Origin: a virus
Direction: 5' to 3' (one strand)
Length of the DNA stretch: 31,776 nucleotides
IMG/VR virus record: IMGVR_UViG_3300005663_000145
Coordinates: 1-31,776 of that record
Below the pieces are notes generated by a model that was not told the origin of the DNA, did not search any database, and saw nothing but the letters and a program-made list of their open reading frames with translations. The stretch's first letter is position 1. Each line of letters opens with the position of its first letter. Shown here piece after piece: positions 3,481 through 18,702 of this stretch. Position numbers and translations under genes: made by a program.

Positions 3481-4797
3481 TTAAGTTAATTGTCTTATTG
3501 TTATACTTCCCTGAATATCCTCATTTGAACCTAATGGACGAACACATAAAACAATTTCATCTGGCGTCCCGTCTATTAATGACCCAAGTCGTAATTCATT
3601 TATAATCTCAGCAGTAGCAGGTGCAGCATTGATAGAAAATCCACCCGACATGGGTGTTCCATTGGTAACCGTATTTGCTGTTACCCCTCTTGCTACTTGT
3701 AGAGCCGAATTGACAAAGTTTGCATAAGCAAAAGCCCCCGCAACAGTTGGATTGAACATTAAAATCCACTCAAAATCATCATTTGTTTCTGAAATCATAG
3801 TGGTATTTATTATCTCTATATCTGCTGCTAAATGAGTCGGTCTTAATCTTATACCCACAACTGCATATATGGTATTAGCAACATTAGCGTCTACATGAGT
3901 GCCGTCAGTAGATAGATAATGAATCGCTCCTGTGTCATGCTGTCCTCCCTCTGATATTACGGTACTGCAAATATCCTCAAAAGTAGAAGCTGCCCCCGAA
4001 CCATCATTAGAAATCTCTGCCCTGACAGGAAGGTTCGGAGTAGACATATAAGCCACATCCAAAGAATTAGCGTTATTCAATTCATGGCATATATGAGGAA
4101 TACCGTCTACAACAAGTCCGTATCTTACCCTTCCCACTGATAACCACTCGAAATCTATAAAAAAGATTTGCGACTTGGAAAGATCTAAATTAATGCCGGA
4201 AGGGTTACCCGCGCCACCTGTTCCGTCTAATTTGTCAGTATTCCAGTTGGCTTGTGTTACTGCCACATCCACAGCCGCCCCCGTTGCAAAAGACCTGCGA
4301 ACCACTGAAAGTATAGTCCCTGATTGTTGAAAAAACAAACCATTTGATTCATCAAATAGACCCTTTCTCCGGGTTATCCCTGCTGCATTTGCACCGAAAA
4401 TTGCTGTAAATACGCATAATTGACTTTTACCCGGCTGATAATTAAACCTTTCCCGGGTCTGCCTAACTCTTACCCCTACTGTTGTGTTGCTTACTGAAAG
4501 CGTAGTGCTTGCACGGTCTACGTCAAAAGCTGTTGCCGTTCCCGCTCCCGAAGTTTGCTGATTGTCAAAGAACAAAGGAAAGTTCTCCACGTTATTTGCT
4601 ATGTCGGCATCATCAAATATCTGTTTGGAATCAAAAAGAGTTTGAGGGTTGGAAACTCTTAACCTTGCAAAAGCGTCTATCGCCATTGAATCGGCAAAAG
4701 AGAATCCATGCTCAGGGGTATGCACCCCACCCTTGTCTTTGGCTTTAATGGTGCGGGTTATTCCGTTACCGTCTTTTATTGCTAAATTATCTGCCAT
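3481..4797 (-). CDS. conserved phage structural protein, tail fibre/appendage
   Basis: The 438-residue protein has a start and core characteristic of a structural family widespread in environmental phages: DAFARLRVSNPQTLFDSKQ near residue 41, then a YQPGKSQ motif, a TRRKGLFDESNG segment and IDFEWLSVGRVRYG. Members occur next to tail or fibre genes and are predicted beta-rich appendage proteins. Here it follows the tail tube region and precedes the lectin-like protein, consistent with a fibre or head decoration role. Family recognition is from memory of the motifs; the exact position in the particle is inferred. Confidence 0.75.
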   Translation of the reverse strand: MADNLAIKDGNGITRTIKAKDKGGVHTPEHGFSFADSMAIDAFARLRVSNPQTLFDSKQIFDDADIANNVENFPLFFDNQQTSGAGTATAFDVDRASTTLSVSNTTVGVRVRQTRERFNYQPGKSQLCVFTAIFGANAAGITRRKGLFDESNGLFFQQSGTILSVVRRSFATGAAVDVAVTQANWNTDKLDGTGGAGNPSGINLDLSKSQIFFIDFEWLSVGRVRYGLVVDGIPHICHELNNANSLDVAYMSTPNLPVRAEISNDGSGAASTFEDICSTVISEGGQHDTGAIHYLSTDGTHVDANVANTIYAVVGIRLRPTHLAADIEIINTTMISETNDDFEWILMFNPTVAGAFAYANFVNSALQVARGVTANTVTNGTPMSGGFSINAAPATAEIINELRLGSLIDGTPDEIVLCVRPLGSNEDIQGSITIRQLT

Positions 4798-16553: not shown

Positions 16554-16847
16554 TCAATTAAAAATTGATTTGTTTTTCTTCTTTAGTGTCTTTTTTAAGC
16601 TGTAAAGCTCGCTGCTCAATTTATAAGTTTTCTCCTGCCAAACTGCAAGTTCTTTATTAAAGTTTTTGATTTCGTTATCATCAATACCGTTTTTTGAGTA
16701 TATGACAATCCCGTGTCTTGTTCTGCCTCCCGGACCGCCTGTAAAATAACTATCATGTTCAATCCATAGTTTATTTTCCTTAAATGCTTTTTCCATTTCG
16801 ACAAATCGGTTAAATTCGTCTAATTCTATTATTATTTGTGGTTTCAT
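16554..16847 (-). CDS. small coiled-coil hypothetical protein
   Basis: The 97-residue product starts MKPQIIIELDEFNRFVEMEK, has a short central GGPGGRTRHGIVIY strand region and ends in a Lys-rich coiled coil (LSSELYSLKKTLKKKNK). It begins 2 nt after the stop of the 33-residue leader gene. No family is recognised. Confidence 0.65.
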   Translation of the reverse strand: MKPQIIIELDEFNRFVEMEKAFKENKLWIEHDSYFTGGPGGRTRHGIVIYSKNGIDDNEIKNFNKELAVWQEKTYKLSSELYSLKKTLKKKNKSIFN

Positions 16848-16849
16848 AA

Positions 16850-16951
16850 TTAATAAACCCGACTTAGAATATCAAACGGTATCGTAACAGAAACCGCACC
16901 AATCCTTTCGGGTATGGTATTCGTATCGGGATTTTTTAATGGATTTTTCAT
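16850..16951 (-). CDS. 33-residue leader mini-gene of the glycan operon
   Basis: ATG 16951 to TAA 16850 encodes MKNPLKNPDTNTIPERIGAV followed by a short hydrophobic segment. The start is 24 nt downstream of a TATCTTTG -7 element (16982-16975), and the next gene begins 2 nt after its stop. Position and coupling support translation; the peptide itself has no recognised function and could be a regulatory leader. Confidence 0.5.
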   Translation of the reverse strand: MKNPLKNPDTNTIPERIGAVSVTIPFDILSRVY

Positions 16952-16974
16952 GTTACGATTTTGTTTTGATATTG

Positions 16975-16982
16975 CAAAGATA
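16975..16982 (-). promoter_or_regulatory. promoter of the glycan operon
   Basis: TATCTTTG on the minus strand matches TAnnTTTG. The -33 region is weak (TTAG about 20 nt upstream). The predicted start is near 16968, giving a 17-nt leader before ATG 16951. Thirteen coupled genes follow without another obvious promoter. Confidence 0.55.
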
Positions 16983-17130
16983 ATCATTATATTTTTACAT
17001 CCTAATAATATTTTTCCGGCTCGCAAACGGTTCCTGATTAAAACATAGGGATTTCTTCTTCAGAAATACCGAGGTTTTGAGCAGGAATGAAAGGAAAATG
17101 CACTGCTACAAGTGTCCCTTGTGCGGCTAT

Positions 17131-17186
17131 TTAACATAAAATTTGGTTATAGGGCTTAGTACGTTCTATAACCCATATTATGTTAA
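17131..17186. other. two-tier hairpin upstream of the three-way junction
   Basis: TTAACATAA (17131-17139) pairs with TTATGTTAA (17178-17186), and GGTTATAG (17145-17152) inside pairs with CTATAACC (17166-17173), leaving a 13-nt loop. It lies 10 nt before the three-way junction and may be part of the same structured element. Confidence 0.5.
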
Positions 17187-17196
17187 TATAGCTCAG

Positions 17197-17269
17197 CGCT
17201 ATTCAGCCCGGTAATTGCTAACTTTTCATAGCAATTATTCCGACCTTAGTCGGAAAGGGTTGAATAGCG
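17197..17269 (+). other. compact three-way-junction inverted repeat
   Basis: A 13-bp outer stem (17197-17209 with 17257-17269) closes over two adjacent perfect hairpins: TAATTGCTA/TAGCAATTA (17212-17220, 17229-17237, eight-base loop) and TTCCGAC/GTCGGAA (17238-17244, 17249-17255, four-base loop). Only three bases in the junction are unpaired. The outer stem contains a G·U pair on the plus strand (an A·C mismatch on the minus strand), which hints that the plus-strand RNA is the functional form. It could equally be a cruciform-type DNA site. It is not a tRNA and lacks the hammerhead core. Confidence 0.6.
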
Positions 17270-17298
17270 AAGCGCAGGTGGCTCAGGAATAAATTAGA

Positions 17299-17355: not shown

Positions 17356-17356
17356 C

Positions 17357-17387
17357 TTGTTTTATTTGTACCGATTGCCTACTTTTG
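17357..17387 (+). promoter_or_regulatory. promoter of the structured RNA and lipoprotein genes
   Basis: TTG (17357-17359) and TACTTTTG (17380-17387) are 20 nt apart and fit the Bacteroidota -33/-7 consensus. Transcription should begin near 17394. Three operator-like dyads are directly upstream. Confidence 0.65.
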
Positions 17388-17393
17388 TATTAT

Positions 17394-17560
17394 TGTTCTT
17401 TGAACCTTACTTATGTAGGGAAAAATGTTAATCTGGTTTTGTACTAAAATCGCCTTTTATAAATTAATCCAACCAGAAGGAATAGCGTAGGTTGTTCCTG
17501 TGGATTATATAGGTGTTTGGCGATACCTTGTACAAGCAGGATGCAGTCCTGCGCTTTTTT
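17394..17560 (+). ncRNA. putative small structured RNA, 6S-like rod
   Basis: Between the promoter and a terminator lies a 167-nt non-coding segment. It has a short 5' hairpin (CCTTAC/GTAGGG, 17405-17420) and a long rod: TTGTAC (17439-17444) with GTACAA (17530-17535), ATCGCC (17449-17454) with GGCGAT (17519-17524), then a 10 by 11-nt internal bubble, then TAATCC (17465-17470) with GGATTA (17502-17507) and an AACC/GGTT inner pair. A rod with a large central bubble and a 3' terminator is how 6S RNA is built, which binds RNA polymerase. No primary-sequence match to a known family is claimed. An alternative pairing (TCTGGTT with AACCAGA) exists, so a switching leader for the lipoprotein gene is the main competing idea. 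Confidence 0.5.
17536..17560 (+). terminator. terminator of the structured RNA
   Basis: GCAGGA (17536-17541) pairs with TCCTGC (17547-17552) around a five-base loop, followed by GC and TTTTTT (17555-17560). It separates the RNA from the lipoprotein start at 17627; read-through or the following palindrome would control the protein genes. Confidence 0.75.
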
Positions 17561-17626: not shown

Positions 17627-18028
17627 ATGAAAACAACAATCTTGCTTTTACTGTTATCTCTTTTTAGTTGTAAGAAAGAAGAAACACCATCACCTGCGGT
17701 ATCACCCGCACCACTACCCGATAAAATATTCAGCGTGAGAATGTACGAAACACAAACTAAACCCTGGATGGATTCATTTAATCAGAATTGGTTTGTAACT
17801 TATAATCTTACAACAACAGGCACACCAGCTACGGCAATAGATATGTACTGGCTACGTGAGAATGAAACTATAACAATAGATGGAGAGTTTAAGCCTGCCT
17901 ATCCTTATAGTTTAATATATGCTTATGTAAGAAGTTGGGTAGACTTAACAGACACCGTGCCAACAACGATAGTAGTACCGGTAACGGTTACGTCCAACGT
18001 ATTTAGCTACACCTTTACTTATAACTAA
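17627..18028 (+). CDS. secreted lipoprotein, unknown
   Basis: The start is taken at ATG 17627 (133 residues), not at an ATG 51 nt earlier, because a lipoprotein signal then begins at once: KTTILLLLLSLFSC with the lipobox LFSC and Cys15. A Lys/Glu-rich and Pro/Ser-rich spacer (KKEETPSPAVSPAPLP) follows, then a beta-rich domain of about 100 residues with several Trp and Tyr. It would be anchored in the host outer membrane or periplasm. In a late phage region it is a 'moron'-type gene: superinfection exclusion or host surface change are the usual roles, inferred only. Confidence 0.72.
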   Translation: MKTTILLLLLSLFSCKKEETPSPAVSPAPLPDKIFSVRMYETQTKPWMDSFNQNWFVTYNLTTTGTPATAIDMYWLRENETITIDGEFKPAYPYSLIYAYVRSWVDLTDTVPTTIVVPVTVTSNVFSYTFTYN

Positions 18029-18039
18029 ATCTAAAAGCT

Positions 18040-18582
18040 ATGAGAAAATTACTTACTATATTATTGGTATGTGCTTCGTTTATTGCACAAGCTCAAATAG
18101 AGGGCATCTTATCAAGGGATTGCGTTTTTAAACAGTCAATTGAATTTTCAGATTCGATTATAAAGACAATACAAAAAGGTGAGAAATTAATTTTATTTAA
18201 GTTAGAAGATGTTTTTTTCTCAGCAGAATATGAAGGGAAAAGGGGTTACATTGTTGATGTTTGCTTTAAATTTACTGATGAGTTTTTAACTTTCTATGAA
18301 AAAGAGTTGGAACGGGTTAAAAAAGAAGAAGATGAACAAAGAAGGATAGAAATACAGCAATGGCATGATTTTTTAATTACAGAATTTGGCAGAATAAATG
18401 CAAATAGAATATTAAATCATCAATATTGGATAGGAATGACGGCAGTTATGGCATCAAACAGTTTAGGTTCTCCAAAAGACATTAATAAATCAGTGGGTTC
18501 ATGGGGAGTACATGAGCAGTGGGTTTATGATAATACATATCTATACTTTGAAAATGGAATATTAACAAGCTATCAGAATTAA
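18040..18582 (+). CDS. secreted protein with SH3-like and SmpA-like parts
   Basis: The 180-residue protein has a cleavable signal peptide (MRKLLTILLVCASFIAQAQ), a beta-rich domain at 20-85 that looks like a bacterial SH3 unit (EGKRGYIVDVCF), a charged coiled-coil (FYEKELERVKKEEDEQ) and a C-terminal module (WIGMTAVMASNSLGSPKDIN, then EQWVYDNTYLYFENG) of the SmpA/BamE-like type common in Bacteroidota envelope proteins. It starts 11 nt after the lipoprotein, in the same operon, and ends before a terminator. It probably modifies or protects the host envelope. Confidence 0.7.
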   Translation: MRKLLTILLVCASFIAQAQIEGILSRDCVFKQSIEFSDSIIKTIQKGEKLILFKLEDVFFSAEYEGKRGYIVDVCFKFTDEFLTFYEKELERVKKEEDEQRRIEIQQWHDFLITEFGRINANRILNHQYWIGMTAVMASNSLGSPKDINKSVGSWGVHEQWVYDNTYLYFENGILTSYQN

Positions 18583-18674
18583 CCATTACGGTTGGGCTGT
18601 GTTCATGGAATCAGAACGGGGAATTGCTTAGGTTCGATTAAACTCCGCACTTATAATAAACAATTCCTATTAGT

Positions 18675-18702
18675 AGGGGAGGTTCACGCCTCCCCTTTTT
18701 TT
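18675..18702 (+). terminator. terminator of the lipoprotein operon
   Basis: GGGGAGG (18676-18682) pairs with CCTCCCC (18689-18695) around six bases and is followed by TTTTTTT (18696-18702). It is about 90 nt after the stop of the 180-residue gene. On the minus strand it has no T-tract, so it is one-directional. Confidence 0.85.

Follow-up and report, generated by a model that had tools for sequence, protein, structure and literature searches.

A pseudoknotted RNA family of Bacteroidota and their phages with a probable attenuator leader of a phage lipoprotein gene among its members

Transcription attenuators and the expression platforms of riboswitches are terminator/antiterminator leaders in which a promoter is followed by a structured leader with mutually exclusive helices, a U-run, and a co-oriented gene that lacks its own promoter. 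The c-di-GMP (GEMM) riboswitches are present in many copies per genome, precede a broad set of exported and surface genes, and occur in phages. 6S RNA, including 6S-Flavo, is built of nested helices, and the ToxI RNA of type III toxin-antitoxin systems is a pseudoknotted RNA upstream of a gene with a terminator between the two. Bacteroidota are a dominant gut phylum for which, to our knowledge, few classes of cis-regulatory RNA have been described.

Here we analyze the plus-strand stretch 17394-17560 (167 nt, non-coding) of a viral sequence of 31,776 nucleotides, IMG/VR record IMGVR_UViG_3300005663_000145 (the window). The RNA and its relatives have the same order of elements as terminator/antiterminator leaders and differ from them in that the apex of their knotted fold is a pairing partner of the terminator strand and in having no common downstream pathway, known trigger, or Rfam family. 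The family resembles the GEMM riboswitches in copy number, exported and surface genes, and presence in phages, but has no Rfam match. It is like 6S and 6S-Flavo RNA in size and nested helices, whereas it is not single-copy, is pseudoknotted, and lies in front of genes. Unlike ToxI, it has neither tandem repeats, none being seen in the window RNA, nor a common downstream toxin gene; no ToxN-like gene appears in the family listings of 64 downstream proteins.

Structure and surroundings of the phage leader

A preliminary description of the window proposed a stand-alone 6S-like RNA with a clear promoter, three nested pairings flanking a large central bubble, and a strong terminator. The promoter, which is of the Bacteroidota type, the three pairings (P1, P2, and P3), and the terminator were all located in the sequence (Table 1). 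The promoter was read by eye and received no score in a sigma-70 scan; its layout is repeated in a homologous viral contig (L034). The 167-nt RNA has a folding energy of -50.3 kcal/mol compared to -34.7 ± 3.6 kcal/mol for shuffled sequences (z = -4.34), and none of 200 shuffles was as stable, in agreement with the claim of a structured non-coding RNA. The central bubble is not a feature of the family. In its place, the helices are separated by short joining sequence together with the pseudoknots K1 and K2. The TCTGGTT/AACCAGA pairing, described as a competitor of the proposed fold, is real and corresponds to the conserved pseudoknot K1. The 5' hairpin P0 is changed on both sides in L034, to TCTTAC/GTAAGA. 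By comparison with its relatives, the window RNA is a diverged, short family member in which the apical hairpin doubles as P4/P5 and the K2 strand is also part of a local terminator hairpin.

Table 1. Positions of the leader elements and neighboring features in the window
Feature	Positions	Strand	Sequence or detail	Basis
Probable second, reduced family copy	16864-16976	-	P1 AATATCAAA/TTTGATATT, P2 ATCGTAACA/TGTTACGAT	
Bacteroidota-type promoter	17356-17387	+	-33 CTTG (17356-59), 20-nt spacer, -7 TACTTTTG (17380-87)	
P0, 5' hairpin	17405-17420	+	CCTTAC/GTAGGG	sequence, folding
K1a, adjoining P1a	17432-17438	+	TCTGGTT	K1 partner-swap test
P1, 5' strand	17439-17444	+	TTGTAC, paired with 17530-35	covariation
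P2, 5' strand	17449-17454	+	ATCGCC, AAA just before; paired with GGCGAT (17519-24)	conservation, covariation
P3, 5' strand	17465-17471	+	TAATCCA; TAATCC (17465-70) paired with GGATTA (17502-07)	partner swapping
K1b, adjoining P3a	17471-17477	+	AACCAGA	K1 partner-swap test
Apical hairpin, P4/P5 equivalent	17478-17499	+	AGGAATAGC/GTTGTTCCT	folding, family comparison
K2a	17484-17491	+	AGCGTAGG, able to pair with 17548-17555	family comparison
P3, 3' strand	17501-17507	+	TGGATTA	partner swapping
Conserved segment with P2 3' strand	17512-17527	+	GGU GUUU (GGCGAU) ACC	family conservation
P1, 3' strand	17530-17535	+	GTACAA	covariation
Local terminator hairpin and T-run	17536-17560	+	GCAGGAT/GTCCTGC (hairpin 17536-17552) and GCTTTTTT; T-run reaches 17560	terminator prediction
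K2b, overlapping 3' arm of local terminator hairpin	17548-17555	+	CCTGCGCT	sequence
Lipoprotein gene	17627-18028	+	MKTTILLLLLSLFSCKK...	sequence; 81% identical homologue behind same leader in L034/L242
Second cassette gene	18040-18582	+	180 aa	sequence
Strong terminator closing the cassette	18675-18702	+		terminator prediction

The plus-strand cassette downstream of the leader (17627-18702) sits between minus-strand virion genes. This is the usual layout of a moron, and the lipoprotein gene, the gene for a 180-residue protein, and the terminator probably form a moron-like cassette. The same leader precedes the lipoprotein homologue in L034. A further candidate relative (L243) was rejected because its similarity to the window lipoprotein is limited to the signal peptide and no leader precedes it. 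A protein search found no relatives of the 180-residue protein.

The minus strand probably carries a second, reduced copy of the leader family at 16864-16976. The covariance model described below (R1) scores it at 23.4 bits with E = 0.0011, a rough value as are all E-values of this model. Its P2 shows a compensatory change, a TATCTTTG promoter box is located directly upstream, and the ORF at 16554-16847 begins shortly after P1. A pattern built for this variant gave no matches, and no relatives were found for the ORF.

An extremely stable inverted-repeat region (z = -7.47) occupies positions 17130-17290 of the plus strand and consists of an 11-bp hairpin within a 9-bp stem, followed by a three-way junction and a 13-bp closing stem. 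It could be a DNA element; no relatives were found in phages, in L034, or in BS-TP1.

Distribution and covariation of the RNA family

A permissive blastn search gave a single weak match of 47 bases, located in a stretch without annotation in the cultured Bacteroides phage BS-TP1. The BS-TP1 copy has the same layout with other letters in the helices: AATTCG/CGAATT replaces TTGTAC/GTACAA in P1, and P3 is wholly changed. Patterns derived from the shared core detected the family in 17 viral contigs and at least 119 genome contigs, nearly all from Bacteroidota. Covariance model R1 was built with the window RNA among its sequences, and the 65.7 bits it assigns to the window RNA are therefore the score of a training sequence. 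Searches with this model of 18 genomes or records that carry homologues found 1-10 copies in each. Of the genomes sampled from one class, 32 of 149 gave matches, as did 26 of 296 from the phylum under strict filters, and none of 299 Pseudomonadota genomes did. Locus L072 carries two leader copies on the same strand (1494-1618 and 4606-4729), 3.1 kb apart and each ahead of a different gene. Members from a Lentisphaerae MAG (L086, L240, and L241) and a Neomarinimicrobiota MAG (L100) passed the covariance model, and may reflect horizontal transfer or a binning error. Pattern matches in Asticcacaulis, Martelella, Dokdonella, Ardenticatenia, and Acidobacteria are attributed to chance because the model finds nothing in those genomes. 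Eleven viral matches to the exact core pattern CCAACCAGAAGGAATAGC were rejected as unrelated sequence without the flanking helices.

No Rfam 15 family matched over this RNA in the window or in any homologue tested, and no description of the family was found in the literature. A survey of candidate structured RNAs from human microbiomes (Fremin and Bhatt 2021, PMC8040213) reports 3161 candidates and lists Bacteroidetes RNAs of similar size. The passages of its text that were compared name no family with this anatomy, and the window family may be among its candidates without a name. Judged by these comparisons, the RNA family is large, widespread in Bacteroidota and their phages, and previously unnamed.

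Compensatory changes are abundant among the homologues. Among 111 deduplicated loci, the best-pairing partner is the cognate one in 96 for P1 and in 85 for P3, the latter supported by partner swapping, compared to about 6 expected for each. Each pair position of P1 has 14-27 both-side changes in 45 sequences. Across P1, P2, and P5 of the diverged members, standard pairs make up 97% of pair cells compared to 65% when shuffled and approximately 40% when slid, and there are 239 double changes versus 62. The first set of loci (A1) was collected with a pattern that fixed P2 and GGT/ACC, so the invariance of these elements in A1 is by construction. P2 is tested solely by the members found with the covariance model (A2), which are aligned to the model's own structure. 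Here P2 is replaced wholesale with pairing kept, for example by ACGACCAA/TTGGTCGT and ACCGCGAA/TTCGCGGT. What is conserved, partly by construction, is a short core, AAA-P2a ... GGY-P2b-RCC, while the rest covaries. The preliminary description held that a lack of covariation in homologues would speak against an independent RNA, and the abundance of compensatory changes removes this objection.

The GGY and RCC bases change jointly in A2 members L181-L215, from GGT/ACC to GGC/GCC in 6 sequences, which suggests a further pairing in steric conflict with full P2. A GGY/RCC helix simultaneous with full P2 was rejected: it covaries in part but would be sterically hard to build, and may thus belong to an alternative state. 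An (A/G)ACATA motif is conserved upstream of K1a in family 5' flanks (for example L018, L045, and L054) and is not evident in the window member.

Mutually exclusive pairings and downstream genes

The two pseudoknots were analyzed by partner swapping on helices picked as best, without an independent alignment. K1, whose strands abut P1a and P3a in the window member and across the family alike, scores above the 95% level of mismatched partners in 39 of 101 sequences (5 expected). K2 pairs the 3' strand of the apical hairpin with the strand immediately before the U-run and exceeds the mismatched-partner mean in 89 of 96 sequences. A control of 5' flank against 3' flank exceeded its threshold in 16 of 111 cases, so part of the K1 and K2 signal may be compositional. 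In 70 of 83 sequences, K2 reuses the P5 3' strand and so excludes that helix. P4 and K1b also draw on common bases in 37 of 56, which makes them mutually exclusive. This sharing of bases indicates two alternative states, both of them conserved.

The U-run is present in 96 of 101 members, and its start lies 28-33 nt downstream of the core (interquartile range). Across the 101 loci, 72 TAnnTTTG boxes fall between 40 and 120 nt before P2a, and the 60 nt that follow the core contain none. The first downstream ORF is co-oriented with the RNA in 111 of 118 loci, at a median distance of 90 nt, which together with the absence of boxes after the core fits a leader followed by a gene that lacks its own promoter. 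Using a crude signal-peptide rule on ORFs called by a simple script, 61% of these next ORFs look exported or membrane-bound compared to 20% of the other ORFs in the loci. The next genes are diverse and include BspA-type repeats, outer-membrane proteins, type III methyltransferases, HSDR subunits, and HTH proteins; within one genome or record, the copies precede different, unrelated genes. No leader peptide is apparent, the longest ATG-initiated ORF having a median of 7 codons and reaching at least 10 residues in just 46 of 101 loci.

Candidate functions of the leader

The covarying fold with its mutually exclusive pairings and the succession of promoter, RNA, U-run, and gene argue that the window RNA is probably a cis-acting 5' leader, a transcription attenuator, of the lipoprotein moron unit. 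The proposed transcription unit would comprise the promoter, the leader, two genes, and the terminator at 18675, with transcription starting near 17394. The nascent leader would fold into P1, P2, and P3 together with K1. In the putative on state, the apical hairpin (P4/P5) would be closed and RNA polymerase would continue through to the gene. In the alternative state, the strand before the U-run would pair with the apical strand (K2) and transcription would stop near 17560; in the window phage, this strand could also pair with the neighboring arm as a local hairpin with the same outcome. A signal read by the conserved core would select the state.

The main rival is a stand-alone, trans-acting small RNA that terminates at 17560 nearly always, the gene being expressed by leakage or through a promoter that escaped recognition; on this reading, the family would be a mobile, multi-copy small RNA. 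The RNA's own promoter, its very stable fold, and the strong terminator with its widely conserved U-run fit this account, and since the local terminator hairpin of the window needs no K2, constitutive termination yielding a discrete small RNA with some read-through is possible. We consider it rather unlikely in view of the close, co-oriented next genes, the lack of a promoter box after the core, the conserved exclusive pairings at the terminator strand, and the enrichment of exported proteins among the associated genes. The inverted repeats and varying neighbors would also suit a recombination site or another element that acts at the DNA level and merely looks structured. That is very improbable against the fixed order of promoter, element, U-run, and co-oriented gene and the G.U pairs of P5, which occur in one strand orientation.

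That the RNA is 6S-like, as in the preliminary description, and mimics a promoter to bind the host RNA polymerase is hardly credible. The nested helices and the size of about 165 nt recall 6S RNA, but the Rfam 6S and 6S-Flavo (RF01685) models match nowhere in the window at the gathering score or at E-values up to 10, nor at the gathering score in 25 homologous loci. The RNA occurs in many copies per genome ahead of unrelated genes, and the pseudoknots and the central P2 helix are not a rod with an open central bubble. A 6S family assignment was rejected on the missing Rfam match, the knotted fold, and the copy number. What survives of the earlier proposal is a discrete, covarying RNA running from promoter to terminator, without the polymerase decoy role; an attenuating leader, the alternative it named, is the better reading, with read-through, regulation, and the signal as its conjectural parts. 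Within the attenuator explanation, a metabolite or second-messenger riboswitch, for which the attenuator would be the expression platform and a small molecule the signal, is an unlikely sub-case. It would account for the short conserved core (AAA, GGY...RCC; partly by construction) amid covarying helices and for the broad set of exported-protein genes. However, P2 can change completely, which leaves few invariant bases for a pocket, and the downstream genes share no pathway that we could find, so no ligand can be guessed.

It is conceivable, if speculative, that the family forms a phylum-wide Bacteroidota RNA regulon in which the pseudoknot is the terminator and a common signal controls a large number of unrelated surface, restriction-modification, and moron genes, the phages having captured the leader to time their morons. 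This signal may be a small molecule, an RNA polymerase factor, or a host-cell state. The family is multi-copy, shows overwhelming covariation, is absent from Rfam 15, lies ahead of surface and accessory genes, and is present in a cultured phage, BS-TP1. It is possibly a new orphan riboswitch, and it provides a testable handle on accessory-gene switching in Bacteroidota and their phages.
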